Below, in pieces: positions 1 to 15,127 of a stretch of DNA of 64,000 nt (position 1 is its first letter; each line of letters opens with the position of its first letter). The notes below the pieces were generated by a model that worked only from the letters and a program-made list of their open reading frames with translations, was not told the origin of the DNA and ran no database searches. A program made the translations under genes and the position numbers. Origin of the DNA: Pelagibacterales bacterium SAG-MED22. Its GTDB lineage: Bacteria; Pseudomonadota; Alphaproteobacteria; Pelagibacterales; Pelagibacteraceae. The stretch is taken from the NCBI GenBank assembly GCA_014653985.1, contig JACWDT010000005.1, forward strand, positions 1-64,000. The letters are read 5' to 3'.

Positions 1-951
1 CTTGCGGCCGGATGTTCTGTTATTATTAAACCAGCAGAAGATACACCTCTAACAGCTATAAGAGTTGCAAAAATTGCTCAAGAGGCAGGAATTCCTGATG
101 GAGTTTTAAATGTTCTTCCTGGTTATGGTGATGTGGGAGAAGCACTTGGTAGACATAAAGATGTAGATGCAGTTTCCTTTACAGGATCTACAGAAGTAGG
201 TGGATACTTTCTAAAATATTCAAGTGAAAGTAATTTAAAACCAGTAGCACTAGAAATGGGAGGTAAAAGTCCATTCATAGTATTAGAAGATGCAAAAATT
301 AATGATGATTTAATTGATAATGCAATTAACTCTGCTTTTTGGAATGGAGGTCAAAACTGCTCTGCAAATATGAGGCAGATAGTTCACGAAAAAGTTAAAG
401 ATGAATTTTTAGATAAAGTTTCAAAAAAAGTTAAAAGTTTAAAAGTTGGAGATCCATTAGATTTAAAATCCAATATGGGATCAATGATTTCAAAAAATCA
501 TTTAATGACTGTTAATAATTATATTCAAAAAGGAATCGATGAAGGTGCAAAACTCTTATTAGGAGGTGTTTCAGGAATAAAACAAAAAGGCTTTTATGCA
601 AAACCGACATTATTTGATGGATTAAAAGAAAATATGACTATTGCTCAAGAAGAGATTTTTGGTCCGGTGTTAGGAGTTTTGACTGTTAAGAATGACAAAG
701 ATGCTCTTAAAGTTGCAAGTAATTCTAAATATGGTTTGCATGCAAGTGTATTTACCCAAGACATAGATAGAGCATTTCATTTGGCAAAAAGTTTACCTTG
801 TGGAACAGTTTCTGTTAATACATTTTCAGAAGGAGATATAAAAACTCCGTTTGGTGGATATAAACAATCTGGATCTTTATCAAGAGATCAAGGTACCGAG
901 GCTTTAAATTCTTTTCTTCAAACAAAAACAATCTGGATTAGTCATTCTTAA
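1..951 (+). CDS. Aldehyde dehydrogenase, NAD(P)-dependent (3' part, truncated by window start)
   Basis: The reading frame is open from base 1 to the stop at 949-951, so the gene begins upstream of the window; about 316 residues are visible. The catalytic glutamate sits in LEMGGKSP (codon 253-255) and the nucleophilic cysteine in GGQNCSAN (codon 358-360). The C-terminal EEIFGPVL and PFGGYKQSG motifs are also present. The family oxidises an aldehyde to the acid with NAD(P)+; the substrate cannot be read from this fragment, though it resembles the betaine/aminobutyraldehyde branch. A 124-base gap with an operator-like palindrome separates it from the TRAP transporter genes, so it may be a separate transcription unit. 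Confidence 0.93.
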   Translation, partial: LAAGCSVIIKPAEDTPLTAIRVAKIAQEAGIPDGVLNVLPGYGDVGEALGRHKDVDAVSFTGSTEVGGYFLKYSSESNLKPVALEMGGKSPFIVLEDAKINDDLIDNAINSAFWNGGQNCSANMRQIVHEKVKDEFLDKVSKKVKSLKVGDPLDLKSNMGSMISKNHLMTVNNYIQKGIDEGAKLLLGGVSGIKQKGFYAKPTLFDGLKENMTIAQEEIFGPVLGVLTVKNDKDALKVASNSKYGLHASVFTQDIDRAFHLAKSLPCGTVSVNTFSEGDIKTPFGGYKQSGSLSRDQGTEALNSFLQTKTIWISHS

Positions 952-997
952 AATAATTTAAGCAGTTTATATAAGCTAATTGCATATCAGTTAACCC

Positions 998-1046
998 AAA
1001 ATGGACGTCCATTTTCTTTGACTCGTCTTTGTTAATCTAGTTAAAT
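998..1046 (+). promoter_or_regulatory. Candidate promoter with 18-bp perfect palindrome upstream of dctP
   Basis: Bases 998-1015 read AAAATGGACGTCCATTTT, a perfect inverted repeat. Two bases later comes a plausible -35 (TTGACT, 1018-1023), a 17-base spacer and a weaker -10 (TTAAAT, 1041-1046). The dctP start follows at 1076 with a purine-rich ribosome binding site (AAGAAGGGG, about 1061-1069). A palindrome just upstream of the -35 suits an activator; a repressor is also possible. The cognate regulator is not in the window. The hairpin could alternatively be a weak terminator for the upstream dehydrogenase gene. Confidence 0.55.
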
Positions 1047-1075
1047 TAAATCTTAAATTAAAGAAGGGGAAAATA

Positions 1076-2125
1076 ATGAAAATAATTAACACTAAAAAAA
1101 TTTGCAAAACTTTGCTTAAAGTATTTGCAATCGCTTTTTTTGCCCAAGCTGCCTATGCAGAGGTAACTCTTAAGCTTGGAACTACTGGAAGATTGGGTAT
1201 GCCTATTGGTGATGCCATAGATCAAGCATTGATACCAGCCTTGGCAAAAGCGTCTGGTGGTAAAATGAAAGTTGAACCATATTATCAAAAAACATTATGT
1301 GCAGAGCAAAAATGTGGTGAACAAGCCAATCAAGGACTTATAGCTCTATGGACTAGTTCCACTGCAAACTATGGTAATTTTGGACCAGAGCTAGCAATTT
1401 TTGATTTGCCTTTCATTTTCAAATCATTGGAAGATGCAAAAAGAATATCAGATGAATGGTTAGCTGAAAGACAGTGCAAACTTGCCCTTGAAAATGCTGG
1501 TCACATTTGCCTTTCTGTATATTCAAGTGGTGGATTTAGACAGCTTGGAAATGCAACTAAACCAGTTCATGTTCCTAATGATATGAAGGGACTAAAATGG
1601 CGTACTACAAAAAGTCCAGTTGAGTTCATGCTAGTAAAAAATTGGGGTGCAACTCCAACTCCTTATGACTGGAGCCAGTTATACTCAGGTCTACAGTCGG
1701 GTGTAGTTGAAGGTCAGTATGTTGCTAGTCCATGGCAGCACGTAGCAAAACTTCATGAAGTTGCAAAATACTTCACTGAAATTGGTGGTATGTGGTCAGG
1801 AAACATTTTAGCAATGGATGCAAAGCAGTATAATGCTCTGTCGTCTCAAGAGAAAAAATGGTTACACGAAGCAGCCGATGCTTATGGAGAAAAAGTAAAC
1901 CAGTTAGATAACGCTTGGATTAAGAATGGTGAAGACGCAATCAAAGCATCTGCAAAAGAATGGTATGTGCCAACTGAAGCAGAAATGTCTAAATGGAGAG
2001 CAGGTGCAATTGGTGCTTGGTTAGATGCTAAAGGTACTTTTGAACCAGAAGTAGCTAAAAGAGTTCTTCTAGAACAAGGAATGGATGGATTTGTAGCTCA
2101 ATTAGAGAAAGCTGGGGCTCTATAA
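1076..2125 (+). CDS. dctP: TRAP transporter substrate-binding protein (DctP family)
   Basis: A 349-residue periplasmic solute receptor. The N-terminus has lysines, a hydrophobic stretch and an AYA/E cleavage site after residue 28. The mature protein has the DctP pattern, including the IFDLPFIF and GLKWRT segments and the GVVEGQ motif. DctP proteins capture an organic acid or related small anion or zwitterion for uptake driven by the sodium gradient; the substrate is unknown here. A CAEQKC cysteine pair near residues 72-78 could form a disulfide. It is first of dctP-dctM-dctQ-dddK. A stem-loop lies between it and dctM, a common arrangement that leaves more receptor than membrane subunit. Confidence 0.92.
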   Translation: MKIINTKKICKTLLKVFAIAFFAQAAYAEVTLKLGTTGRLGMPIGDAIDQALIPALAKASGGKMKVEPYYQKTLCAEQKCGEQANQGLIALWTSSTANYGNFGPELAIFDLPFIFKSLEDAKRISDEWLAERQCKLALENAGHICLSVYSSGGFRQLGNATKPVHVPNDMKGLKWRTTKSPVEFMLVKNWGATPTPYDWSQLYSGLQSGVVEGQYVASPWQHVAKLHEVAKYFTEIGGMWSGNILAMDAKQYNALSSQEKKWLHEAADAYGEKVNQLDNAWIKNGEDAIKASAKEWYVPTEAEMSKWRAGAIGAWLDAKGTFEPEVAKRVLLEQGMDGFVAQLEKAGAL

Positions 2126-2145
2126 ATCGTTTAAAGAAAAACTGT

Positions 2146-2187
2146 GTAAAGATCATTTAGTTCTATTTAGAGTTAGATGATCTTTAC
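2146..2187 (+). promoter_or_regulatory. Intergenic stem-loop between dctP and dctM
   Basis: GTAAAGATCAT (2146-2156) is perfectly complementary to ATGATCTTTAC (2177-2187), giving an 11-bp stem with a 20-base loop. No T-run follows, so it is not a standard terminator. By analogy with other binding-protein transport operons it probably protects the dctP message or reduces read-through into dctM. Function is inferred from position. Confidence 0.5.
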
Positions 2188-2216
2188 CTAAAACAAATCA
2201 TAACATATAAGTAACT

Positions 2217-3500
2217 ATGGAAAGTATCATTCTACTTGTAGTACTACTTTTCCTAATCTTATTAGGTGCACCCATTGGCTTCATATTAATACTGATACCA
2301 TTTGTTTATATTTTATTTACTGACGCTGTACCGCTTGTTTTGATCCCAAGTCAAATGTTTAATGCAATTGACTCGGTTCCATTAACTGCAATTGCGTTCT
2401 TTATGCTTACAGGTGAGTTAATGACAAGTGCTACGATTACGGACCGATTAGTAGCTTTGAGTAGGGCATTAATTGGACGTATACGAGGGGGGTTGGCCCA
2501 AGTAAATGTTCTTGTAAGTATGTTTTTTGCGGGGATGAATGGTTCTGTAGTAGCAGATACAGCTACAGTGGGAGCACTAGTTTTACCAGCAATGAAAAAA
2601 GCTGGATATCCTGCTGCTTTTTCGGCTGCAGTTACAGGAGTTAGTTCCACCATAGGAGGGATAATTCCACCAAGTATCATGATGATTGTACTTGCTAACT
2701 CGACTGAGATTTCGATTGCAGCTTTATTTGCAGCTGGGATTATTCCAGGTGTGTTGATAGGAGTTGTTATCATGATAATTAATCATTATTTTGCAATCAA
2801 ATATAACTTTGAGAGAAGTGATGAACCATTTTCGATACGTCGAGCTGGTAGAGAATTATATCGATCCTCGTTCGCCCTTCTAATACCTTTAGTTTTAGTC
2901 GGTTCAGTAATGGGTGGTGTGGCATCGGTTGTTGAGGCTGGTGCTATCACAGCAATGGTTGCGCTATTAACAGGAGTATTCGTTTATCGAACTATTAAAT
3001 GGAAAGAATGTACTGGTGCTTTTCGTCGAGCATTCCGTAATTCAGCAATGGTTTTTATTATTATAGCTGCTTCAGGACCTTTCAGTTGGTTACTTACTTC
3101 TCTAGGGGCAATTGGTGATCTTGAAAGCTGGCTTTTAAGCCTGACAGGTTCCCCCATTATTTTTATTTTAGCGGTGATTCTATTCATTTTTCTTCTTGGA
3201 ACAGTAATGGACTCAGCAGTAAACATTATCATAGTTGGCCCAGTTCTAGTTAACGTTATGGCTCAAGCCGGTTTTCCTGAGGTACAAGCAGCCATTGTTG
3301 TAATAGTTGGTTTTTTAATAGGATCAGTAACACCACCAGTAGGCGTAGCTTACTTTACTGCTGCAACAATAGCACAAGTGCGTCTTGAAAAGGTGGCTGT
3401 TGCTTTAATTCCTTATTTAGTTGGTCTTTTTTTACTTTTATTTTTTATTCTTGTTATTCCAGAGTTGACTATGTTTCTTCCTAACCTAATGAGCAATTAA
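2217..3500 (+). CDS. dctM: TRAP transporter large permease subunit (DctM family)
   Basis: A 427-residue, very hydrophobic inner-membrane protein with about 12 predicted segments. It shows the DctM hallmarks: GMNGSVVADTATVG near residue 106, IIPPS at 149-153 and a second GSVTPPVG motif near residue 350. It forms the sodium-coupled transport channel that takes substrate from DctP, with DctQ as the small subunit. The order P-M-Q places the large subunit before the small one. Sampled bases 2641-2700 contain 23 G+C of 60, clearly higher than most of the window, consistent with recent acquisition or with membrane-protein codon bias. Confidence 0.94.
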   Translation: MESIILLVVLLFLILLGAPIGFILILIPFVYILFTDAVPLVLIPSQMFNAIDSVPLTAIAFFMLTGELMTSATITDRLVALSRALIGRIRGGLAQVNVLVSMFFAGMNGSVVADTATVGALVLPAMKKAGYPAAFSAAVTGVSSTIGGIIPPSIMMIVLANSTEISIAALFAAGIIPGVLIGVVIMIINHYFAIKYNFERSDEPFSIRRAGRELYRSSFALLIPLVLVGSVMGGVASVVEAGAITAMVALLTGVFVYRTIKWKECTGAFRRAFRNSAMVFIIIAASGPFSWLLTSLGAIGDLESWLLSLTGSPIIFILAVILFIFLLGTVMDSAVNIIIVGPVLVNVMAQAGFPEVQAAIVVIVGFLIGSVTPPVGVAYFTAATIAQVRLEKVAVALIPYLVGLFLLLFFILVIPELTMFLPNLMSN

Positions 3501-3504
3501 ACAT

Positions 3505-4014
3505 ATGTTAAAATTTTTAAACAACTTTGACCGTTTTACTCATCGAATATTGGAAGCTATGTGTTCACTCTTTTTGGCTGCGATGGTTTTTTTCACTATT
3601 TATAACGTTACTATGCGATATGTTTTTAATAACCCTCCTGTTTGGGGTGATCTACTAACAGTATTAAGTAATATTTGGTTGATGTTTATAGCACTTTCCT
3701 TAACAGCGAGAGACAATGAACACATAGCTTTAAATCTAATTTATGAAAGATTACCAAATAGAATATCACTATATATACGTCAATTTTGGAAAATTATGAT
3801 TATGGTAATTGGTATAGTCCTAATAATTTATGGAGTTGAACTTGTAGAAGGTATGCGTGGGAAGTATTGGGAAATGTGGTATTTTGAAATTAGTTCTAAA
3901 GGTATTGAGTTTAAAGAGAATTATATGCCAAAAAAATACGCAGTCGCAATTTTGCCATTAGCTGGATTTTTGACAACTATTGGTGCTGCTATTAGTTTTG
4001 TGAAAAAGGTCTAG
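3505..4014 (+). CDS. dctQ: TRAP transporter small permease subunit (DctQ family)
   Basis: A 169-residue membrane protein with four hydrophobic segments. The conserved N-terminal portion contains NVTMRYVFN, a tryptophan-containing cytoplasmic loop (PPVWGD) and an ARDNEHIALN segment, all typical of DctQ. It starts four bases after the dctM stop and is followed 11 bases later by dddK, so it belongs to the same operon. DctQ is required for assembly and function of the TRAP transporter but carries no substrate information that can be read from sequence. Confidence 0.9.
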   Translation: MLKFLNNFDRFTHRILEAMCSLFLAAMVFFTIYNVTMRYVFNNPPVWGDLLTVLSNIWLMFIALSLTARDNEHIALNLIYERLPNRISLYIRQFWKIMIMVIGIVLIIYGVELVEGMRGKYWEMWYFEISSKGIEFKENYMPKKYAVAILPLAGFLTTIGAAISFVKKV

Positions 4015-4025
4015 TTCTTTGAGTT

Positions 4026-4406
4026 ATGATATTTGTTAAAAATTTTAATTCAATCTCCAGTCAAGAATGGAAAACAAGTGAGAAATATCCTGGAGTGAGA
4101 TGGAAGTTTTTAGTTGATGCAGATATTGATGGAAGCAAAGGAATTTCTTGTGGTTTTGCGGAAATTTTACCAGGTGGAAAATTAACTTTACATCATCATG
4201 CACCAGACGAAATTTATGTTGTAACCAATGGTTCTGCAACTTTAAACAAAAATGGTGAACTTGAAGAGATTAAAAAGGGGGACGTAGTTTATATTTCTAA
4301 TAATGCTAAACATGCACTTAAAAATAATAGTGATGAAACATTTGGATTTTATTGGCTTTTCCCAACAGATCGATTTAAAGAAGTTGAATATTTTTCTGAT
4401 GAGTAA
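4026..4406 (+). CDS. dddK: DMSP lyase, cupin type (DddK-like)
   Basis: A 126-residue single-domain cupin. From memory of the SAR11 enzyme DddK, its metal ligands are His56, His58, Glu62 and His96, with catalytic Tyr64 and Tyr122. This protein has H56, H58, E62, Y64, H96 and Y122 at exactly those positions, within HHHAPDEIYVV and the C-terminal FPTDRFKEVEYF. DddK cleaves dimethylsulfoniopropionate into dimethyl sulfide and acrylate. The gene follows dctQ by 11 bases and is therefore probably co-transcribed with the TRAP transporter, suggesting uptake of DMSP or a related compound (inference). A generic cupin of unknown function is the alternative, made unlikely by the residue match. Confidence 0.88.
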   Translation: MIFVKNFNSISSQEWKTSEKYPGVRWKFLVDADIDGSKGISCGFAEILPGGKLTLHHHAPDEIYVVTNGSATLNKNGELEEIKKGDVVYISNNAKHALKNNSDETFGFYWLFPTDRFKEVEYFSDE

Positions 4407-4412
4407 AGTTTT

Positions 4413-5327
4413 TTAATTTAGAAAATGAACACTAAAAAGTTTTTTGCTATCAACCCAAGTTTTATCTAGTTTCCATCCAGCTTTATTAGCTAAGTTTTTG
4501 AAGGATTCAATCGTATATTTATGAGAATTCTCTGTATGTATCTCTTCATTTTTTTTAATTAAATAATTTGAACCATTAATTCTAATATTATTTATTTTTT
4601 TAGATTTTAATCTCATTTCAATTCTTTTTTTTTGTTTATTATAAATGGCTAAATGTTTATAGGAATTCAGATTTATATCTGCACCTAATTCAGTATTAAT
4701 TCTTTGTAAAATATTTTTATTGAATTTTGCGGTTACCCCTTTTTTGTCATCATAAGCAGTAATTAGAGTTGGGATATCTTTTACTAAATCAGCACCGATG
4801 ATAATTTTTTTTGCTTTAAATTTTGATTTTAACATTTTTAAAAATTTAACAGCATCCTTCTCTTCGAAATTTCCAATGGTTGATCCTGGAAAAAATATAA
4901 TTATATTTTCAGATGAATTGATTTTAAAAGGTAGTTTATTATTTCTTGAAAAGTCATATCCTTTAGGAGTAATAGCTATTTTTGGGAATTTTTTTTTAAA
5001 ACTTTGAGATATCTTGTTTATATAATCTTCTGAAATATCCAAAGGTATATATTTTTTAGGCTTATCTAAACTGTTGAGAAAAATAGCTATTTTCTTGAAG
5101 TCTCCAGCACCTGGTTCAATTAAAACTGCTCGCTTACCTATTTTATTAGCAATTTCAATTTTATTATCTTTTAAAATTTTTCTTTCAGTTCTTGTTGGGT
5201 AATATGTTTTCAACTTCGTTATTTGTTCAAAAAGTTTCGATCCACGAAAGTCATAAAACCATTTAGAACTTAACTCTTTATTTTTTTTACTTAAACCGAA
5301 ACTTACTTCTTGTAAAAATGATTTCAT
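4413..5327 (-). CDS. egtD: L-histidine N(alpha)-methyltransferase (EgtD)
   Basis: A 304-residue SAM-dependent enzyme that trimethylates the amino group of histidine to hercynine, the first step of ergothioneine synthesis. Visible family motifs in order are WFYDFRGSKLFEQIT, YYPTRTERKIL, the SAM motif EPGAGDFKK, FFPGSTIGNF, the YDDKKGVTAKFN segment and RIEMRLKSK, then HTENSHKY near the C-terminus. The start ATG shares bases with the stop of the upstream methyltransferase gene (ATGA overlap), so translation is probably coupled. It is the last gene of an egtB-dioxygenase-methyltransferase-egtD series and converges on dddK with a six-base gap. Very AT-rich (11 G+C of 60 at 4621-4680). Confidence 0.95.
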   Translation of the reverse strand: MKSFLQEVSFGLSKKNKELSSKWFYDFRGSKLFEQITKLKTYYPTRTERKILKDNKIEIANKIGKRAVLIEPGAGDFKKIAIFLNSLDKPKKYIPLDISEDYINKISQSFKKKFPKIAITPKGYDFSRNNKLPFKINSSENIIIFFPGSTIGNFEEKDAVKFLKMLKSKFKAKKIIIGADLVKDIPTLITAYDDKKGVTAKFNKNILQRINTELGADINLNSYKHLAIYNKQKKRIEMRLKSKKINNIRINGSNYLIKKNEEIHTENSHKYTIESFKNLANKAGWKLDKTWVDSKKLFSVHFLN

Positions 5328-6244
5328 TTTATACTTTGCCTAACTAAAAGACGACTAATTGGCATTGAAAATCGCCCTTGTCTTTCATTATCTGTGCTCA
5401 CTTTGGATATTGCGAGCACGTCAGATAAATTTTTAATCATTAATTTTCTTTTTTCTGGTTTTAAGATAAATGCTGCGTAAAAAAATCCTGAAGCAATTTC
5501 AGCTACTTTAATAACTGGTCCTTCCATAGATACAACATTTGTTTCGATAGTCACACTTGCTTCTGGAAACGCTTTATGTGCAAGATTACTTAGACTCTCA
5601 GATCCTCGTATCCTTGGATCACCTAAATCAATCTCTCCATAACTAGGTAATTCTTCTTGAACATAGCTATAAATTAAATCATGTACCTCTGCATATCCAG
5701 ATGCTACATTCATTGGTCCATCAACTAATGCAGCAAACTGACCTTTAGAAGTTAAAACTCGTTTGATTTCATCTAAAACAGGAACTATCGGGTCCATTAA
5801 TGTCAAAGCCCAATGACATAACACAATGTCTATAGAGTTATCATTGATTGCTGTCAAATTTTGTGCTTTTGACTCAATAAGATTAACCCCACTATTTTTA
5901 AGACGAGTTTTAGCTAGTACCAATTCTTCAGGGCACATGTCTATACCTTTTAAATTTAAATTTTTATTACGATCAAATAAAATTTTTAATAACGGCCCTG
6001 ACCCGCAGGCAAGATCTAATACACTCAAACTTGCGTTATCAGGCACAACTTCACTTAGCCATTCATAACTATTACGTCCAGCTTCATCACGACAAGAACT
6101 TGCACATGCTTCAGTAAATCCAGTATTTTCTTGATGGATTGTTTTTAAATGATCAACTAAAGCATTACCATTAGGATGAAGATTACGAGCAAGACTTTTA
6201 GTCCAGATTGAATTTAATCCATTTTGATTATTTATGTTTTTCAT
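5324..6244 (-). CDS. SAM-dependent class I methyltransferase, substrate unknown, in ergothioneine-type cluster
   Basis: A 306-residue protein starting at the ATG that overlaps the upstream dioxygenase stop (ATGA, 6241-6244); a start at 6268 is possible but less economical. Motif I VLDLACGSG is at residues 75-83, an acidic motif II follows (KGIDMCPEEL), and later come CHWALTLMDP and the RVLTSKGQF segment typical of Rossmann-fold methyltransferases. An unusual cysteine-containing stretch (EACASSCRDEAGRNSYEWL) lies around residues 45-63. It is translationally coupled to egtD by another ATGA overlap at 5324-5327, so it probably acts on the same small-molecule pathway. The methyl acceptor is unknown; a histidine, thiol-histidine or hydroxylated intermediate is a hypothesis. 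Confidence 0.85.
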   Translation of the reverse strand: MKNINNQNGLNSIWTKSLARNLHPNGNALVDHLKTIHQENTGFTEACASSCRDEAGRNSYEWLSEVVPDNASLSVLDLACGSGPLLKILFDRNKNLNLKGIDMCPEELVLAKTRLKNSGVNLIESKAQNLTAINDNSIDIVLCHWALTLMDPIVPVLDEIKRVLTSKGQFAALVDGPMNVASGYAEVHDLIYSYVQEELPSYGEIDLGDPRIRGSESLSNLAHKAFPEASVTIETNVVSMEGPVIKVAEIASGFFYAAFILKPEKRKLMIKNLSDVLAISKVSTDNERQGRFSMPISRLLVRQSIK

Positions 6245-7239
6245 GATTTGTCTTTTAATGGCCAACAAATCGGATTTAGTGGACTAGCAGCCAAGTCTCC
6301 TGGTTTGACATTTGGTACAAATTTCTGCCAGTCACCAGAAACCATCGTAGGTGAATCAACTATTCTCGCTCCATCACGATAATAAGTATTGGCAAGAGCC
6401 ACTCGACTACGATTAGTTCGGTTGCGTGAGGCTGTATGGAAATTTAAATTATGATGAAAGCTAACTTCACCCAGCTCAAATGGAGTTTCATTTACAGTTA
6501 CATTATTTTTTGAAAAAACATCTGTAACCCCACGGTCATATCCAGTACCAGTTTTTTTAAACGTAACTGCATTGACTAATTTGTGGACATCGAGTGGATA
6601 GGCGAAAGAGAGCGGTCCCATCTCAAGAGGAATTGGCTGTGCAGGTGCCCAAGCAGTAACTACGTCATTGGTATCTAGAGGAAAATGATGATCGTCGAAG
6701 TGCCAAGGGGTACGACCACAACCAGCTTGTTTAGCTAATACATTGTCATGATAAAGTCTAACAGCTGGTACTCCAAGAAGATCTGCTGAAATTTGCCCTA
6801 GACGAGGTGATAATACATAAGCACGAAGCAGTGCGTTGTCAGGCCAAATCATTTCAAGACTAAGGAAACGAGCATGTGCTCCTTTATCTGGATCAACCTT
6901 AAATTCTTCTTTTAATAAATTAATTAACTCAGATCTAAGTTTTAACACAGCCCCAGGTGAAAAAACTTTTTTAAGTTTAATAAAACCATTTTTTTTAAAA
7001 AAATCAATTTGATCATTAGTTAAATGGTAGGGCTTAGCTAATTCTGAGATAACTTCATCATCACTTGGTATTGTAATATCTGGTAAAGGATCGGCATTAA
7101 TAATTTCATTTTCTTTATCATCATTATCTGCGAGACTAACATACCAGTCCCACCAGGCCTGATTATCCTTATCCCATGGTTTACTAATATCCGTAGCATC
7201 AGTTAGTTTAGAATTTAAATTGGTATTAGATTTAGACAT
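6241..7239 (-). CDS. Phytanoyl-CoA dioxygenase (PhyH) family 2OG-Fe(II) oxygenase in ergothioneine-type cluster
   Basis: A 332-residue non-heme iron oxygenase. The facial triad is readable: H180 and D182 in WHFDD, and H268 in NFHTAS, with R279 (NRSRVAL) placed to bind 2-oxoglutarate. The first 70 residues are polar and low in complexity. PhyH-type enzymes hydroxylate or halogenate small molecules; the substrate here is not known. The stop overlaps the next methyltransferase start, and egtB lies 112 bases upstream. Bases 6361-6420 hold 26 G+C of 60, much above the flanking egtD (11 of 60), which suggests the gene pair was acquired or exchanged recently. Ectoine-hydroxylase-like activity is another possibility. 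Confidence 0.87.
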   Translation of the reverse strand: MSKSNTNLNSKLTDATDISKPWDKDNQAWWDWYVSLADNDDKENEIINADPLPDITIPSDDEVISELAKPYHLTNDQIDFFKKNGFIKLKKVFSPGAVLKLRSELINLLKEEFKVDPDKGAHARFLSLEMIWPDNALLRAYVLSPRLGQISADLLGVPAVRLYHDNVLAKQAGCGRTPWHFDDHHFPLDTNDVVTAWAPAQPIPLEMGPLSFAYPLDVHKLVNAVTFKKTGTGYDRGVTDVFSKNNVTVNETPFELGEVSFHHNLNFHTASRNRTNRSRVALANTYYRDGARIVDSPTMVSGDWQKFVPNVKPGDLAASPLNPICWPLKDKS

Positions 7240-7351
7240 TTAAGTTGTTCTTATAGTTTTATTTTTTTTTAGTAACAGCGCGTTTTGACATGTAATGATT
7301 GATTTATCTGAAAAAAGTTTAGTTTTTTGTTCTAGTCATACAAAAATTCTC
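7240..7351. other. Intergenic region between egtB and the dioxygenase gene
   Basis: A 112-base gap, the longest in the thiol cluster. It is AT-rich with several homopolymer runs. No convincing promoter pair, hairpin terminator or riboswitch could be recognised, although it is long enough to carry a promoter for the dioxygenase-methyltransferase-egtD genes. Confidence 0.4.
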
Positions 7352-8575
7352 TCATTTAGCAAGTCTTAGTCCAGACATTTGCCATCTTTGATGAGGATAA
7401 AAGAAGTTACGATATGATTTTCTCATTTGATCTTTAGGTGTAAGGCATGAGCCTCCTTTTAACACTATCTGGTTGACCATAAATTTACCATTGTATTCGC
7501 TGATATCATCATTGTGATATTTAAACCCTGGATAAGGAGAGAAGTTTGAAGAAGTCCACTCCCATACGTGTCCCCAATGTTGATTTAAATCTGCACTATT
7601 TTTTTTTGAATATGGCTGATATATTTTATTTTCTAAAAAATTCCCTTGAATATTATCATTAGAAGCAACCTCCCATTCAAATTCTGTTGGAAGTCGTTTA
7701 TTGTTCCATCTTGCAAAAGCGTCAGCTTCAAAGTAGCTAATATTACTTACAGGCGCATTGAGATCTATTTCTTTATTCCCATTTAAAGTGAAGTGAAACC
7801 ATTTACCTTCTTTTTTTTTCCAATAAAGAGGGGACTGCCAATTTTCCTGCTGGCATTTTGAAAATCCATCTGACAACCAATATTCACTTTTATTATAACC
7901 GTCATTATCAATAAACTCGATCCATTCACCATTTGTAACTAACTTGTTTGATATTTCAAAAGGAAGGATTAAAACTTCATGTTTAGGTCGCTCACAATCG
8001 AAAGAGAAATTTTCATCATCTGTACCTATACTTTTAATAGCTTTTTCAAAACCAACCCATTCTTGTTTAATATTTTCACTTTCAATATCTTTTTTAGTTG
8101 GATCGTACTTGGGACCAGTAGGGTTGAAGCTTAAACCATGCTGTAGATCTGTTAACATTAATTCTTGATGTTGCATTTCATGGTGACAGCCTACTTCAAT
8201 CATATCTAAATCGGAGTTACTTGATTGACATAACTCTGTAATTCTATGGTTTATAGTTTGCCTATATTCTAGAACCTCTTCAATTCCTGGGCGTGAAATT
8301 ATGTTTCGAAGTGATCTTGTGTATCTTGGACCTGCTTTGACATAATAAGAATTAAATAAATAATTATAATCCTCATTAAAATATTTATAATTAAACTTTA
8401 TTTTGCTTAAAACGAATTTTTCAAAAAACCAAGTAGTGTGAGCAAGATGCCATTTGATAGGTGACGCATCATCCATCGATTGGATACTCATGTCCTCTGG
8501 ACTTAGATTTTCGATAATTTTAATCGATTGATTCCGTGTTTTCTCAAATAAGTTCTGAATATCGTTATTATTCAT
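7352..8575 (-). CDS. egtB: Ergothioneine-type sulfoxide synthase (EgtB/OvoA family)
   Basis: A 407-residue non-heme iron enzyme with an N-terminal DinB-like domain and a C-terminal FGE-sulfatase-like domain. Iron ligands are visible as the HLAH motif (H43/H46) and HHEMQH (H132, H136). The C-terminal half has WEWTSSNF, KGGSC and a terminal SGLRLAK, typical of the FGE fold. The enzyme joins hercynine (or histidine) to a cysteine-containing thiol with oxygen to give a sulfoxide. It lacks the C-terminal methyltransferase domain of full-length OvoA; a separate methyltransferase is encoded nearby. EgtD in the cluster favours the hercynine substrate. No EgtC-type amidohydrolase or EgtE-type lyase is in the window. 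Confidence 0.92.
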   Translation of the reverse strand: MNNNDIQNLFEKTRNQSIKIIENLSPEDMSIQSMDDASPIKWHLAHTTWFFEKFVLSKIKFNYKYFNEDYNYLFNSYYVKAGPRYTRSLRNIISRPGIEEVLEYRQTINHRITELCQSSNSDLDMIEVGCHHEMQHQELMLTDLQHGLSFNPTGPKYDPTKKDIESENIKQEWVGFEKAIKSIGTDDENFSFDCERPKHEVLILPFEISNKLVTNGEWIEFIDNDGYNKSEYWLSDGFSKCQQENWQSPLYWKKKEGKWFHFTLNGNKEIDLNAPVSNISYFEADAFARWNNKRLPTEFEWEVASNDNIQGNFLENKIYQPYSKKNSADLNQHWGHVWEWTSSNFSPYPGFKYHNDDISEYNGKFMVNQIVLKGGSCLTPKDQMRKSYRNFFYPHQRWQMSGLRLAK

Positions 8576-8645
8576 AAGATTACTTTATCAAAATAACAAT
8601 AAAGCCAACATAGTTCACTTTACAAAACGACGCTGATTATTAAAC

Positions 8646-9971
8646 TTAGTTAGATTGTTGATCAGAAGCTTTTATGTCTTCAACAGCAGTTTCAGAAGCT
8701 AATTTTGTTGGTTCATCAATTGGCTCTGTAGTTGGGCTTAATTCAATACCTGCAGGCGTAATTGACTGAGGCATTGCAATAAATTGAGAGTCTGGATTTT
8801 CAACTGCTGGTCTAACTCTAGATCTATAGACACCATAAATTCCAATTAAAATATGAAAAAACATTAGAAAAACAAAAAAACCATTAAGACCCGCCATATC
8901 CATAAAAATTGAGCACAAAAATGGACCACCAATCGCACCTAAACCAAAAATAAATTGTAAACTAGCACCAGCTGCAACAAATTTTTCTTTAGGAATAAAA
9001 TCATTTGTGTGAGCAAGGATCAATGAGAACATTGGTAAACTACAAAAGGCAAATAAGATTAAAAAAATATAAAACCAAAATTTACTTGTTCCCAATCCTT
9101 CAGGTAAATACATTTGTGCAGAAGAAAAAATTGCACATAATGCAAAAAAGGCTGCAGCAAAACTCACAACTATAATTACTTTTCTTCTATCATACATGTC
9201 TGATATTTTTCCTATTGGCCACTGTGAAACTGCACCAGAAATTGCTAACAAGAATGTAGCTAATGAAATATGAAAAATTGAAAAATTCATTCCCGCAGCG
9301 TATACAGCTAGTAATGTAAATAATGCAGATTGAATTGTTCCATAAAAAAATGCACTTACCATTCCAAAGGGAGATGAAATATAAACTTCTTGAATTGACA
9401 TAGTTTCTATTTTTTTAAATGTTGGAGGTTTTCTTTTAGTAAGTAAAATTGGAATTAGTGCACCAGATGTTATAATTGATATTAATACAAAAGGTTCAAA
9501 ATTTATCGGATTACTAAAGTTTAAAAAAAACATTCCTGTTCCCATTGAACCATACAAAATCACCATGTAGATCGATAAGACACTTCCTCTGTTCTTATTA
9601 CTTGCTCTATCGTTTAACCAACTTTCAGCAACAGTATAAATAGAGACCATACTGATTCCTGTAAGCACTCTTAATAGGAACCATACAAATGGACTAACAA
9701 ACACAGCATGAACTAAAATTACTAAAGATGCAATTGATGCAAAAGCTGCAAAGATTCTGATATGACCAACTCTTGATATTAATTTAGGAATAGTCATTGC
9801 TCCTATAAAATATCCAACGAAATAACCAGACATCATAAATCCAGTTGCAGTTAAACTAAACTCTTCTTTAACTGCTCGAACTCCTAAAAGTGATCCTTGA
9901 AAACCGTAGGCTAGCATAATTGCTCCCATACCTAAAAATAAAGCCCATGAATTTTTTAACACCTTGTTCAT
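8646..9971 (-). CDS. Major facilitator superfamily permease (YcaD-like)
   Basis: A 441-residue integral membrane protein with 12 hydrophobic segments and a polar, acidic C-terminal tail of about 50 residues. The pattern GISMVSIYTVAESWLNDRAS and the internal GKISDMYDRRKVI loop (between helices 6 and 8) are typical of the YcaD/quinolone-resistance-like branch of MFS. The substrate cannot be predicted. It lies between the glutathione genes and egtB on the same strand with gaps of 54 and 70 bases, so it could export or import a thiol compound, but that is only a guess from position. Confidence 0.85.
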   Translation of the reverse strand: MNKVLKNSWALFLGMGAIMLAYGFQGSLLGVRAVKEEFSLTATGFMMSGYFVGYFIGAMTIPKLISRVGHIRIFAAFASIASLVILVHAVFVSPFVWFLLRVLTGISMVSIYTVAESWLNDRASNKNRGSVLSIYMVILYGSMGTGMFFLNFSNPINFEPFVLISIITSGALIPILLTKRKPPTFKKIETMSIQEVYISSPFGMVSAFFYGTIQSALFTLLAVYAAGMNFSIFHISLATFLLAISGAVSQWPIGKISDMYDRRKVIIVVSFAAAFFALCAIFSSAQMYLPEGLGTSKFWFYIFLILFAFCSLPMFSLILAHTNDFIPKEKFVAAGASLQFIFGLGAIGGPFLCSIFMDMAGLNGFFVFLMFFHILIGIYGVYRSRVRPAVENPDSQFIAMPQSITPAGIELSPTTEPIDEPTKLASETAVEDIKASDQQSN

Positions 9972-10025
9972 ATGAATCGCTATCTATTTCTGATTTGTGG
10001 CCAAATCAAGTTAATTTTAATAGGG

Positions 10026-10886
10026 CTATGATTTTTTTAGTTTAAGAAAAGAGTGAATAGCTATCGTCAAAATGATGACAATGCCTCCTTGAATTGTTTC
10101 TAGACTTGGTTGTTCTTTAATGACCATCCAGACCCAAATTGGCCCGATGATTGTCTCTAGCAAAAAGAATAAGTTCACCTCTTCAGCAGGTATAAATCTT
10201 GGTGCAATAGTTACTAAAACAAAAGGTATAGCAACACACATTACGCACATCAGAGGAACAATTAATAAGTCTCTCCCAACTAAGGCGTAAGTTTCAATAA
10301 AGAAAATGGCAAATATTGCAACCAACAGCTTACCAACTACAGCAGCAGGAACTAGGTTTTTTGTTTTAGCAGATCTAATCGTAACGGCTCCAACCGCTAA
10401 TCCTAAGGCACAAACGAGACCCAATAAATCCCCAAAAATATTCCCTAATTGTAAGGAGTCGTAAAATATATATATCGCAGCAAGAAAAGTTACTGCGATT
10501 GCTATCCAAGTTTTACTATCTGGTATTTCTTTTAAAAATATTGCCCCTAAAATTGCTGAAAGCATAGGCGCCATAGCAATCATAACCAATGTATTGGCTA
10601 CATTTGTATTCTGAATAGAAACAACAAAAGCAATATTGGTTATAGAAAAAGTTATTATATAAATTATTCCATGATGCCCACTCGTGAAAAGCATTTTGAA
10701 GAAATTTGCTTTGTAGATAAGCAACATACCGAACAATACGGTAAAAAAAGGAATTACTCCTCGATAAAAAACTAAACTCCAGGTATCAACACTAGCCAAT
10801 CTTATAAATAAGCTATCAGGCGTAATAAACATAACCGCAACAAATGCTAGCAAAGAACCTTTTTGCTGCTCGTTTAAAGTTTTCAC
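10026..10886 (-). CDS. EamA/DMT-family permease linked to gshB
   Basis: A 286-residue membrane protein with ten hydrophobic helices arranged as two EamA repeats; the second repeat has the AEEVNLFFLLETIIGPIWVW segment that ends in a family-typical glutamate-proline-rich loop. Its start overlaps the gshB stop by four bases (ATGA), a sign of translational coupling. DMT permeases export amino acids, thiols or other metabolites. Coupling to gshA-gshB suggests a thiol or cysteine-derived substrate, but this is inference. Four tightly linked genes (gshA, gshB, this permease, the MFS permease) form the upstream half of the thiol region. Confidence 0.85.
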   Translation of the reverse strand: MKTLNEQQKGSLLAFVAVMFITPDSLFIRLASVDTWSLVFYRGVIPFFTVLFGMLLIYKANFFKMLFTSGHHGIIYIITFSITNIAFVVSIQNTNVANTLVMIAMAPMLSAILGAIFLKEIPDSKTWIAIAVTFLAAIYIFYDSLQLGNIFGDLLGLVCALGLAVGAVTIRSAKTKNLVPAAVVGKLLVAIFAIFFIETYALVGRDLLIVPLMCVMCVAIPFVLVTIAPRFIPAEEVNLFFLLETIIGPIWVWMVIKEQPSLETIQGGIVIILTIAIHSFLKLKKS

Positions 10887-11809
10887 GCTTTAAGTTCTTT
10901 CCAAAAAACTTTAGCAAGATTTATACCTGATAAATCGAAAAGGGTTTTAAGTCCAGTTGGGGAGGTTACATTAATATCACCATTAAGTTTTTGATCAATA
11001 AAATCTATTCCTGCAAAAAAAATATCATCTTTTTTTAAATCCTTAGCAATTAATTTTGATATCTTATTTTCATTTACACTCAGTTTAACATTTACAGGCT
11101 TTGCACCTTTACTCATATTACTTAAAATAGACCCTGTTTTTGGAATTCTAGAGATTGCTCCACAAACTTTACCTTTGATTATAAAAACTCTTTTATCTCC
11201 TTTGATAATTTTAGGTAAAAATTTTTGCAACATAATATGATCATGTTTTTTAATAAAACTGTTGATTAATTTTGGATTAAATTTGTTTAATAAATGTATA
11301 TCATTCCCACTGTAACTATGGATTGGTTTTAAAATAACCTTTTCGTTCTTTTTAAAAAATTTTTTTATTTCATTAATGTTTCTACTAAAAATAGTATCTG
11401 GCATATATTTTTGATATTTTGCTGAATACAACTTTTCTGAAACATTTCTTATAGAGGTAGGGTTATTTAAGATTTTTACTTTATGTTTAATAGTATCTAA
11501 AATGTATGTCGTTGAAATATATTCAAGATTAAAGGGCGGATCTTGTCGTATAAGTATAAATTTAGATTTAGTAAGTTCTAAACTACATTTTTTTAATATT
11601 TTAAAAAATTTTTTTTGAGTGTAATTAAATTTTACAAAAAAACCTGTTGCAATTACTTTTGAATTGATAATTGAAAGGTCTTTTGGCTCATAATAGAATA
11701 TTTTATAATCCTTATTTTGAGCCTCATTAGCCAAAAAAATACTTGTATCTGAAACTGGATTTAATTTTGAAGGATGGTTACCTTGAATAGCAACAATTTT
11801 ATTTGTCAT
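10883..11809 (-). CDS. gshB: Glutathione synthase
   Basis: A 308-residue ATP-grasp ligase that joins glycine to gamma-glutamylcysteine. Characteristic features are IRQDPPFNLEYISTTYIL in the N-terminal domain, NPTSIRNVSEKLYSAKY, GDKRVFIIKGKV and the C-terminal INVTSPTGLK. The glycine-rich loop that in most GshB proteins reads like LDGMGG is here KPIHSYSGNDI, so the ATP-covering loop is divergent. It overlaps gshA by 11 bases and the downstream permease by four. Its length is close to the usual 315 residues. An alternative ATP-grasp role is possible but the flanking motifs and gshA neighbour make GshB likely. Confidence 0.88.
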   Translation of the reverse strand: MTNKIVAIQGNHPSKLNPVSDTSIFLANEAQNKDYKIFYYEPKDLSIINSKVIATGFFVKFNYTQKKFFKILKKCSLELTKSKFILIRQDPPFNLEYISTTYILDTIKHKVKILNNPTSIRNVSEKLYSAKYQKYMPDTIFSRNINEIKKFFKKNEKVILKPIHSYSGNDIHLLNKFNPKLINSFIKKHDHIMLQKFLPKIIKGDKRVFIIKGKVCGAISRIPKTGSILSNMSKGAKPVNVKLSVNENKISKLIAKDLKKDDIFFAGIDFIDQKLNGDINVTSPTGLKTLFDLSGINLAKVFWKELKA

Positions 11810-13094
11810 ATAATTCGTCTAAATTTTCATTTTCTGAAAATCTACTAATCATATGATCTGCGTTTGTTGTCTTGTTATCAATTACTTTTTGTAAATGATT
11901 TAAAAAAATCGTTTCGTTACTTCCTTTTTTGTTTAAAATATCCCTATTTTCTAAACCTTTTTTTGATAGATTTAATAAGGTTGAAGACCAATAAAGAAGA
12001 TCTTTACCCATTAATTGAGTATTAAATCCTTTTTGAGGTGCTTCTAAGTAGGCATTAATAATCTTATCTGTTTCCCACCTTGAGACAACATCATAAATTT
12101 CATCAAGATTACCATAAAGCATCCCAATATTAAAAGCGGGTCCAGCACATAAGCAATCCCAACCACAAGTATCCATCGATCTAAGCTCAATATATTTTTT
12201 TAACCTGTTCTCTGTAAAGATTGTACTTAAATGTGTTGTAAGATCACTTTTTGTGGGTAATCGTTTACCAATCTCTTCAATTTTACCCTCCATAAAATCT
12301 CTAAAAATATATTTTCTACCAGAAATATATTCATCTTTATCTTGAATAAATAAAATAGGAAAATTCATTGTAAATTCTGCATATTTTTCAAAATTTAAAT
12401 TTTCAAAAAACAATTTTGGAAGTCCACCTCTAGAAGTATTCTGCCAAACTTTTGATCGGTATGATAAATAATTACTATTTTTCTTTTCAACTATTGAGGA
12501 ATTAGCAAATAAAGCAATAGAAATTGGTACAATTGAATTTATAACTTTAAATTTTTTTATAAAATCTTCCTCTGAACTATAATCAACATTTAATTGAGTT
12601 CCACAAGTTCGATACATCATATCTAAACTTAATTCACCACCTAGGGGCATGTCTTGGGTCATTAATTTATATCTCTGCTTTGGATTGTTTGGGATCTCTT
12701 CTAATTTTGAGATGGGGTCAAAACCAGCACTGACAATTTCAATATCTAATTTTTTTGTTACTTGCTTTAATTCAAATAAATAATCTTGAGACTCTGAACA
12801 AGCCTCATGAATATTGTTAAGCTTATCTCCTGATAATTCAATTTGATTTCCAGGCTCGAGTGTTATATTTTTTCCACCCTTGTTAAGTGCAATTATATTA
12901 TCATTTTCAAAAACTGGGTTCCATCCAAACTCCAAAAGTGCATTGAACATTTCTTTTATTTTAAAATAATCTACTCGTTTATTATTTTTTTTATTAAATA
13001 GAAACTTTTCATGCTCAATTCCAATTTTAAAATCTTTAGTCTGTTTCACTCCAGATTTAAAATATTCAATTATTTTTTCTTTATTATCGATCAT
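11799..13094 (-). CDS. gshA: Glutamate-cysteine ligase, plant/alphaproteobacterial type
   Basis: A 431-residue enzyme forming gamma-glutamylcysteine from glutamate and cysteine with ATP, the first step of glutathione synthesis. Family features include KIGIEHEKFLF, ITLEPGNQIELSG, LMTQDMPLGGELSLDMMYRT and SRGGLP, plus the RSMDTCGWDCLCAGPAFNIG segment in the C-terminal half, which carries cysteines also seen in plant-type enzymes under redox control. It begins the gshA-gshB-permease operon. Its product could also serve as a sulfur donor for an EgtB that uses gamma-glutamylcysteine, but no EgtC is seen here. Confidence 0.92.
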   Translation of the reverse strand: MIDNKEKIIEYFKSGVKQTKDFKIGIEHEKFLFNKKNNKRVDYFKIKEMFNALLEFGWNPVFENDNIIALNKGGKNITLEPGNQIELSGDKLNNIHEACSESQDYLFELKQVTKKLDIEIVSAGFDPISKLEEIPNNPKQRYKLMTQDMPLGGELSLDMMYRTCGTQLNVDYSSEEDFIKKFKVINSIVPISIALFANSSIVEKKNSNYLSYRSKVWQNTSRGGLPKLFFENLNFEKYAEFTMNFPILFIQDKDEYISGRKYIFRDFMEGKIEEIGKRLPTKSDLTTHLSTIFTENRLKKYIELRSMDTCGWDCLCAGPAFNIGMLYGNLDEIYDVVSRWETDKIINAYLEAPQKGFNTQLMGKDLLYWSSTLLNLSKKGLENRDILNKKGSNETIFLNHLQKVIDNKTTNADHMISRFSENENLDELYDK

Positions 13095-13146
13095 AATTCT
13101 CTAGATAGTATCTTTTATTTTTTTTTAAAGAACTGTTTTTATCATC

Positions 13147-14628
13147 CTAGTTGTTTGAGGCGGTACTTAACAAAGATAATTGTGTTATTTTACTATCACC
13201 TAGCTCATCAACTGGTTTAACAGGATAATCTCCTGTAAAATAATGATCTGTTAATTGAGGGTAAGTATTATTTCGCTTATCAAAACCAATAGCTCTATAT
13301 AAGCCATCAATAGACAAAAATTTTAATGATTTAGCACCAATATACTCACAAATTTCATCATTCGTTTTATTTGCAGCTAATAATTCTTTTTTGGTTGGAG
13401 TATCCACACCATAAAAATCAGGATATCTAATTTCAGGACAAGCTATTCTAACATGGACTTCTTTTGCACCTGCATCATATAACATTTTTACTATTTTATG
13501 AGAAGTAGTTCCTCTGACAAGCGAGTCATCAATTAAAATAATTTTTTTATTTTTAATAGTAGTTTGGTTTGCATTTAATTTAAGCTTTACACCCAAACTT
13601 CTGATTTTTTGGCTTGGTTCAATAAAAGTTCGACCCACGTAATGGTTTCTTATCAAACCATGTTCAAAGTTCATTTTATGCTTTTGGGAAAATCCTAATG
13701 CTGCTGCATTACCAGAGTCTGGAACCGGTACTACGATATCGGCATCAATATCGTTTTCTTTTGCAAGTTCTTTTCCTAAATTTTTTCGATGTTCATAAGC
13801 AGTTTTATTATCTAATAAACTGTCAGGTCTTGCAAAGTAGATATACTCAAAAACGCATGGTCTTACTTTTTTAGGAGGAAATGGCTTGATGCTAGTCAGT
13901 TGATTGTTCTCAATTAAAACAATTTCGCCATTTTCAACTTCTCTAACAAAGTTTGCACCAATAATATCTAATGCACAGGTTTCTGAAGCTAGTACATAAC
14001 TACTTCCCAATTTACCAATTAACAAAGGTCTAATACCATATGGATCTCTTACCCCAATAAGAGAGTTTTGAGTTAACATTACCAAAGCATATCCGCCTTG
14101 TATTTGAAAAATTGCATCAATTACTTTATCGATAGTTTTCGATCTCTTTGATTTTGCAATCAGTTGTACAATAGTTTCAGTATCTGAGGTGGTGTAAAAA
14201 ATAGCTCCCTCCTCAACAAGTTTTTTTCTTAAAGAAATTGAATTAGTTAAATTTCCATTGTGTGAAACTCCAATTCCTCCTGCATTAGTATCAGCAAAAA
14301 AAGGTTGGATATTTCGTAAAGTATTATTACCAGTTGTACTATACCGATTATGACCTATAGCGTAATTACCTTTTAAATTATTTAAAACTTTTTCTTTATT
14401 AAAGTTGTCTCCAACTAAACCAAATCGCTTTTCAGAATAATATTTTTCACCATCAAAACTTACAATTCCACAACCTTCTTGTCCTCGATGTTGCAACGCA
14501 TGTAATCCAAGTGCGGTTAAAGCAGAAGCGTCTTTTGCATTACTAATACCAAATACCCCACACTCTTCTTTTAATTTTGGATCAAAGTTCTTCAATTTTT
14601 TCTCTAGATTCTTGATATGTTTTTTCAT
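13147..14628 (-). CDS. purF: Amidophosphoribosyltransferase
   Basis: A 493-residue enzyme that catalyses the first committed step of purine synthesis (PRPP plus glutamine to phosphoribosylamine). The class II glutamine amidotransferase domain begins with the nucleophile in EECGVFGI after a short propeptide, followed by ALQHRGQEGCGI and GHNRYSTTG. The C-terminal phosphoribosyltransferase domain has the PRPP loop IILIDDSLVRGTT. The start overlaps the end of cvpA by 47 bases, an unusually long overlap, but no later methionine precedes the catalytic cysteine, so this start is required. cvpA-purF is a classic gene pair. Confidence 0.97.
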   Translation of the reverse strand: MKKHIKNLEKKLKNFDPKLKEECGVFGISNAKDASALTALGLHALQHRGQEGCGIVSFDGEKYYSEKRFGLVGDNFNKEKVLNNLKGNYAIGHNRYSTTGNNTLRNIQPFFADTNAGGIGVSHNGNLTNSISLRKKLVEEGAIFYTTSDTETIVQLIAKSKRSKTIDKVIDAIFQIQGGYALVMLTQNSLIGVRDPYGIRPLLIGKLGSSYVLASETCALDIIGANFVREVENGEIVLIENNQLTSIKPFPPKKVRPCVFEYIYFARPDSLLDNKTAYEHRKNLGKELAKENDIDADIVVPVPDSGNAAALGFSQKHKMNFEHGLIRNHYVGRTFIEPSQKIRSLGVKLKLNANQTTIKNKKIILIDDSLVRGTTSHKIVKMLYDAGAKEVHVRIACPEIRYPDFYGVDTPTKKELLAANKTNDEICEYIGAKSLKFLSIDGLYRAIGFDKRNNTYPQLTDHYFTGDYPVKPVDELGDSKITQLSLLSTASNN

Positions 14629-15127
14629 TAGGAAATTCTTTAATCAGATAATTACTACCTTTTTCTAAATATGGAAAGGCGTATGATTTGTCTATATTTA
14701 TTGGCCATTTATCATAATTATAAACGATATGAATACCTGAAAAAATACAAACAGAAATTACATAAGCTTTTATAAAGCCAAAAAAGAATCCAAATGTTGT
14801 ATCTAGCCCACCTATACCAGTGTATCTAACAGCTTTACTAATACCTTTATTAACCAACAATACTAAAAAAATAACTACAATAAAAATTGCTATCCCAAGA
14901 CCAACGTTCGATATATATTCATTATCAAAAATATCTTTTACATACGGTTTAACTCTAGGAAATAGAAATAGAGTTATCAAATAAGCCAAAAGCCATTTTA
15001 CCATGGATAGGATACTTAATATAAAACCTTTTTTATAACAGCTAATCAAAGACCAGATAGTGATTACTAAATAAGTCAAATCTACAATGGAAGTTGCTTT
15101 GTAAAAATCTGCCAAAGTTTCTAACAT
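14582..15127 (-). CDS. cvpA: CvpA family membrane protein
   Basis: A 181-residue protein with four hydrophobic segments and the CvpA pattern: SCYKKGFILSILSMVKWLLAY near the N-terminus, then GIGGLDTTFGFFFGFIKAYV. CvpA is linked to colicin V production and envelope stress in other proteobacteria and typically precedes purF, as here. Its start codon shares one base with the stop of the upstream RND gene (TAATG). The molecular function of CvpA is not settled. Confidence 0.93.
   Translation of the reverse strand: MLETLADFYKATSIVDLTYLVITIWSLISCYKKGFILSILSMVKWLLAYLITLFLFPRVKPYVKDIFDNEYISNVGLGIAIFIVVIFLVLLVNKGISKAVRYTGIGGLDTTFGFFFGFIKAYVISVCIFSGIHIVYNYDKWPINIDKSYAFPYLEKGSNYLIKEFPNEKTYQESREKIEEL

Follow-up and report, generated by a model that had tools for sequence, protein, structure and literature searches.

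The window analysed here is a stretch of 64,000 nucleotides from Pelagibacterales bacterium SAG-MED22 (positions 1 to 64,000 of contig JACWDT010000005.1). It contains a cluster in which egtB, an ergothioneine pathway gene, is followed by genes for a PhyH-family dioxygenase, a methyltransferase (MT) and EgtD. We conclude that the functional unit is EgtD-PhyH-MT and that egtB is an optional neighbour, because of the locus counts, the co-occurrence of the genes across genomes and a promoter-like element that PhyH has to itself. On balance, we favour a single, EgtB-independent pathway made up of PhyH, MT and EgtD, the product of which would be a sulfur-free hydroxylated, methylated histidine betaine. 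The features of the cluster are:

7352-8575, minus strand: egtB, sulfoxide synthase (DinB_2 and FGE-sulfatase domains), 407 amino acids, TIGR03440; an optional member of the locus.
7250-7289, minus strand: putative promoter-like element, GTCAAAACGCGCtgTTACTAA...TATAAG, within the egtB-PhyH gap and 5' of PhyH only.
6241-7239, minus strand: PhyH-family Fe(II)/2-oxoglutarate (2OG) dioxygenase, 332 amino acids, PF05721, N-terminal signature NQAWWDWY.
5324-6244, minus strand: MT, class I S-adenosylmethionine (SAM)-dependent methyltransferase, 306 amino acids counted from the ATG; always adjoins PhyH.
4413-5327, minus strand: egtD, L-histidine N-alpha-methyltransferase (hercynine synthase), 304 amino acids, TIGR03438.

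The four open reading frames, the two ATGA overlaps on the coding strand (6241-6244 for PhyH/MT and 5324-5327 for MT/egtD) and the spacing of exactly 112 bases between egtB and PhyH had been described in a first-pass annotation of the window, and a check of the reading frames and the sequence bore them out. PhyH relatives with 92-99% identity are from Pelagibacteraceae single-cell genomes, which identifies the host as SAR11. Because the close relatives keep this gene arrangement, and because the ratio of nonsynonymous to synonymous substitution rates (dN/dS) among them is 0.08-0.23 for PhyH, MT and egtD, the arrangement is not due to chance.

When 84,980 species genomes were scanned with a PhyH alignment, 158 relatives were found, and the locus counts are for the best 80 of these 158. 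MT adjoins PhyH in all 80 loci; 52 of the loci include egtD and 19 include egtB. Most of the 80 are SAR11 loci, in many of which the start-stop overlap of MT and egtD recurs. The loci outside SAR11 are those of a 'Burkholderiales' single-cell genome (L152) and two metagenome-assembled genomes (MAGs; L120 and L131), all with egtD-PhyH-MT, and also Marivita (L153), a 'Thioalkalivibrio' MAG (L155), Rhodobacteraceae (L156 and L157), Rhodosalinus (L158) and Actibacterium (L159). The egtD gene is beside PhyH in L153, L156, L120, L131 and L152, and it is divergent from PhyH in the first two. The egtB gene is 5' of the set in the window and 18 close relatives, and it adjoins the set in L152. Judged by the refuting condition that the first-pass annotation had set, the PhyH-MT pair is common without egtB and almost never found without egtD.

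The genome counts display the same pattern. PhyH orthologues are present in 24 of the 197 SAR11-family genomes, and 22 of the 24 have EgtD, versus 20 of the 173 others (Fisher p 1.4e-15, a value that overstates independence since a single genus contributes most of the PhyH genomes). EgtB scores above its cut-off in 13 of the 197 genomes, all 13 of which have EgtD, and there is no association between EgtB and PhyH in this family (Fisher p 0.66). Among the 24 genomes with PhyH, EgtB is encoded in just two, the genome of the window and that of a near relative. Genome G040, which is a single contig and 100% complete, has PhyH-MT-egtD, and the EgtB search gives only a short match to the FGE domain. 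Outside of SAR11, EgtD is in 11 of 12 PhyH genomes versus 79 of 289 sampled alphaproteobacteria (about 27%; binomial 6e-6). Many of these non-SAR11 PhyH genomes also encode EgtB; it was not detected in Marivita (G486), G489 (Rhodobacteraceae) or G483, all of which have egtD beside PhyH. EgtD-PhyH-MT without EgtB is therefore found in several separate lineages. The first-pass annotation had tied the two extra enzymes to the ergothioneine genes; this tie stands for EgtD and fails for EgtB. PhyH is in one of the 298 genomes of the family to which Actibacterium belongs, which is too rare for a co-occurrence statistic, and a phylum sample gave only two remote PhyH relatives. PhyH was absent from the viral contigs searched, and on plasmids there were only remote relatives, in other gene contexts.

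Nearly all SAR11 loci, whether or not they have egtB, share a conserved stretch, GTCAAAACGCGCtcTTACTAAT...(A)CTATAA, immediately 5' of PhyH; an alignment of 47 loci indicates that it is weaker in genus g2. In 4.68 Mb, with both strands counted, 61 of the 63 non-redundant matches to this element lie before PhyH, and the window has one match, versus 0.11 expected. From its sequence, the element looks like a promoter with an operator. Since it is inside the egtB-PhyH gap, the three downstream genes could be expressed independently of egtB transcription. A search of the cluster region for terminator-like sites gave none. Two other explanations of the gap were rejected: there is no Rfam match within window positions 1-16000 that would indicate a riboswitch or another known RNA, and the reading frame of a possible short leader peptide 5' of PhyH is not kept among the relatives.

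The EgtD and EgtB of the window are, by sequence, orthodox members of their families. EgtB scores 527.5 bits with TIGR03440 (curated NCBIfam cut-off 360), its motifs HLAHTTWFFE, FNSYY and HHEMQHQE are intact, and the nearest solved EgtB is the Chloracidobacterium enzyme (6qki/6o6l, E about 1e-103). An OvoA identity for this sulfoxide synthase was rejected (ovoA_Nterm 115.8 bits, cut-off 400), as was a selenoneine pathway (SenA model 320.9 bits, short of the 420 cut-off). EgtD scores 353.5 bits with TIGR03438 (curated NCBIfam cut-off 290.9), and it keeps the residues that align with Y39, Y56, N166, M252, E282 and S284 of mycobacterial EgtD, which we take to be the histidine-contact residues. 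EgtDs that serve EgtB and those that serve PhyH are alike at these residues in the alignment. Because the histidine-binding residues are kept, the product of EgtD should be hercynine.

PhyH matches PF05721 (E 2e-13) and has the features expected of an Fe(II)/2OG dioxygenase, namely the domain, the 2-His-1-carboxylate triad and the 2OG arginine. The triad H180/D182/H268 (HxD...H) and R279, the 2OG arginine, are invariant in 15 diverse homologues, and the WWDWY core of the N-terminal NQAWWDWY stretch is invariant among homologues. The best match of PhyH in a Protein Data Bank (PDB) sequence search is SnoK (E 6e-16); SnoK and SnoN are the PhyH-family carbocyclase and epimerase of nogalamycin synthesis and differ in their polyketide antibiotic context, of which there is none around the window PhyH. 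Two hydroxylases of small protectants, MysH (E 3e-6) and EctD (E 1e-3), share the PhyH fold family at the level of a profile match only. Hydroxylation of a small zwitterion would make them close functional analogues; however, the window protein has a distinct NQAWWDWY N-terminus and is linked to EgtD rather than to ectoine or mycosporine genes. The possibility that PhyH is an EctD orthologue was rejected, as the profile match is distant and there is no match to the EctD family in NCBIfam.

MT matches Methyltransf_11 (E 7e-16), and its predicted model is confident (predicted local distance difference test, pLDDT, 88.8). The fold search gave general class I methyltransferases only, and the profile search listed many enzymes of this class. 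No OvoA chain is among the MT matches listed in the PDB sequence searches, and the OvoA C-terminal family is not among the 25 NCBIfam families listed as matches. Therefore, we rejected MT as an OvoA-type C-terminal methyltransferase, and the earlier suggestion of an ovothiol/ergothioneine hybrid, with the OvoA methyltransferase supplied in trans, finds no support in these results.

We infer the substrate, the order of the steps, the products and the role of the EgtD-PhyH-MT set from the sequences. EgtD would trimethylate histidine to give hercynine (histidine betaine). Without EgtB, hercynine is the only known product open to PhyH and MT, and so, we propose it as their substrate. PhyH enzymes hydroxylate, and this one would hydroxylate hercynine, probably at the side chain; MT would then transfer one methyl group, either to the ring, to the hydroxyl so formed or to the carboxylate, and an additional methyltransferase described below (MTa) may add another methyl in many bacteria outside SAR11. 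In the window lineage, egtB would share the hercynine pool, so that ergothioneine and the new betaine may arise in parallel. It is probable that the oxygenase and the second methyltransferase are functionally tied to an enzyme of the ergothioneine pathway and act on its product, as the first-pass annotation had it. Betaines are known compatible solutes, and the product is plausibly a zwitterionic compatible solute, perhaps a salt-stress protectant.

As compared with the ergothioneine pathway, the EgtD orthologue is the same and, in the window lineage, so is an EgtB close to the Chloracidobacterium enzyme; the differences are the additional 2OG oxygenase and second SAM methyltransferase, and the absence of EgtB from the majority of SAR11 genomes with the EgtD-PhyH-MT set. 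EgtB linked to EgtD, the mark of an ergothioneine cluster, is found in the window and is missing from most SAR11 genomes that have EgtD, PhyH and MT. Hercynine was detected in nine of 10 cyanobacterial strains in one study (PMC3826126), and a methylated hercynine, 6-methylhercynine from the sponge Characella, is known as a marine natural product (PMC8779493). The sponge compound differs in that its methyl group is on imidazole C-2, a radical route is proposed for it and it has no hydroxyl (PMC8779493).

Several observations weigh against the proposed pathway. Position 252, a Met in mycobacterial EgtD, is occupied by Gly in g2 and by Leu in the gamma group, and in g2 egtD is apart from PhyH-MT; the EgtD substrate may therefore differ. 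EgtB co-occurs in most PhyH genomes outside g2, g9 and g12. No EgtD was detected with PhyH-MT in Rhodosalinus (G491) or in the SAR11 genomes G493 and G496, which were found via their loci, and seven g2 genomes, most of them incomplete, have EgtD without PhyH. The predicted PhyH structure model is poor (pLDDT 40), so the pocket is unreadable from it. Finally, the chemistry is deduced from the genes, and the role as a compatible solute, which has moderate weight, would follow from the habitats of the carriers and the general behaviour of betaines.

Among the alternatives, the one that survives best is that PhyH and MT act on a non-histidine metabolite and that the link with egtD reflects a shared niche or inheritance. 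In g2 the PhyH-MT pair is alone amid housekeeping genes, Rhodosalinus has the set with no EgtD detected, and remote PhyH relatives adjoin alcohol dehydrogenases and hydrolases, all of which would agree with such a metabolite. The overlap of MT and egtD in many SAR11 loci, the independent adjacency of egtD and PhyH in Rhodobacteraceae and in L120, L131 and L152, and the 11 of 12 co-occurrence outside SAR11 make it unlikely.

Less probable still is a hydroxylated or methylated betaine thiol, made by PhyH and MT from ergothioneine or another thiol-histidine produced by EgtB. The position of egtB 5' of the set in the window and its 18 relatives, its place in L152 and the EgtBs encoded elsewhere in many PhyH genomes outside g2 would fit this idea. 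However, 22 of the 24 PhyH genomes of the SAR11 family, the closed one included, have no EgtB, nor was it detected in Marivita and G489; EgtB and PhyH are not associated, PhyH has its own upstream element and the syntenic site in L096 has no egtB. If ergothioneine were taken up from seawater, the idea would be rescued, but the link with EgtD would still have no explanation. The modified thiol-histidine of the first-pass annotation is therefore unlikely as a general product.

It is equally doubtful that PhyH and MT act before EgtD, with histidine hydroxylated and methylated and the modified histidine then trimethylated by EgtD: the operon order PhyH-MT-egtD agrees with this, and the Gly or Leu at position 252 could admit a larger side chain, but the EgtDs of the window and of other such three-gene sets keep the full histidine-contact set and resemble those that serve EgtB.

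The phylogenetic trees bear on the origin of the EgtD-PhyH-MT set. The window EgtD is in a fully supported clade whose members are all EgtDs of PhyH-MT-egtD operons, some with egtB and some lacking it, and this clade is sister to EgtDs from plain egtB-egtD operons (G051, G487 and G066). The EgtB tree is congruent, with the window-lineage EgtB sister to the EgtBs of G051 and G487. In both trees, the parts beyond the SAR11 clades considered here include long branches and open forks. These results would imply that PhyH-MT joined an egtB-egtD operon and that egtB was then probably lost in many descendants; a regain is possible. L096 has the order EamA-MFS-PhyH-MT-egtD at the syntenic site (MFS, major facilitator superfamily), with no trace of egtB in between. 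Separately, the egtB-egtD pair of L060 (G048), which is in the SAR11 family, groups with gamma and 'Burkholderiales' EgtD and EgtB, pointing to a transfer between marine lineages.

MTa is between PhyH and MT in L153 and L155-L159. Coordinates of MTa genes are L153:6140-6979, L155:1749-2588, L159:10989-11825 and L183:7024-7848. It is elsewhere in the genomes of L120, L131 and L152 (unlinked in G483-G485), and a test of seven SAR11 genomes with PhyH did not find it. In three other alphaproteobacteria with PhyH orthologues of 53-56% identity, MTa is kept in all and MT in two. Histamine N-methyltransferase, which methylates the imidazole ring, is the best PDB match of the MTa profile (E 8e-4); the likeness is remote and partly common to SAM methyltransferases generally, so the match is weak but fits imidazole methylation. 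An MFS-type protein adjoins MTa in two distant alphaproteobacteria that have the set (L183:5720-6949 and L184:12751-13986; family search of the L183 copy) and may serve to export or import the product. A sodium:solute symporter is near the set in L153 and L184.

Other neighbours are more varied. In the window, putative gshB-like and gshA-like genes (10883-13094, minus strand), which we take to be glutathione genes by sequence recognition, precede EamA, MFS and egtB, and most close relatives have the same order. A DddK-type dimethylsulfoniopropionate (DMSP) lyase gene (4026-4406, plus strand; E 1e-61 to DddK structures 5tfz/6a53) is convergent to egtD, and genes for a tripartite ATP-independent periplasmic (TRAP) transporter (dctP, dctM and dctQ) and an aldehyde dehydrogenase (1076-4014) are ahead of it. 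Together these are likely a locus for uptake and cleavage of a sulfur compound; in the loci of several relatives, no TRAP or aldehyde dehydrogenase gene was found next to the cupin. The g2 egtD neighbours (L217:2834-7277; also L214) encode a ProX-type glycine betaine binding protein, a TmpA-like dioxygenase (330.7 bits, short of the 400 cut-off) and a PhnZ/TmpB-type HD-domain oxygenase. DMSP demethylase/GcvT-like and weakly MetF-like proteins, assigned by a family search of the L216 copies, are encoded next to egtD, or next to egtB-egtD, in SAR11 genomes of different genera (L216:6820-8911, L218:8145-10275 and L221:4704-6780).

Rhodosalinus is presumably of marine-saltern origin. Two other carriers outside SAR11 are from salty places, HLUCCA09 from the saline Hot Lake consortia (PMC5468372) and B1Sed10 from hypersaline soda-lake sediment (PMC6146748). 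We suggest tentatively that SAR11 and scattered marine and salt-lake bacteria may make a sulfur-free imidazole betaine as a compatible solute, and that lineages without EgtB may have turned EgtD wholly to it. Among the papers searched, there was no description of an EgtD-PhyH-MT gene set and none of ergothioneine in SAR11. The presence of EgtD is commonly taken to indicate ergothioneine; EgtD alone would mislead here, since most SAR11 genomes with EgtD and PhyH-MT are without EgtB. Few cells in the sea are as abundant as those of SAR11, and if the proposal is true, a new nitrogen-rich betaine would be added to the dissolved organic nitrogen and osmolyte pool of the ocean, and the gene set would give the exact genes and masses with which to seek it.

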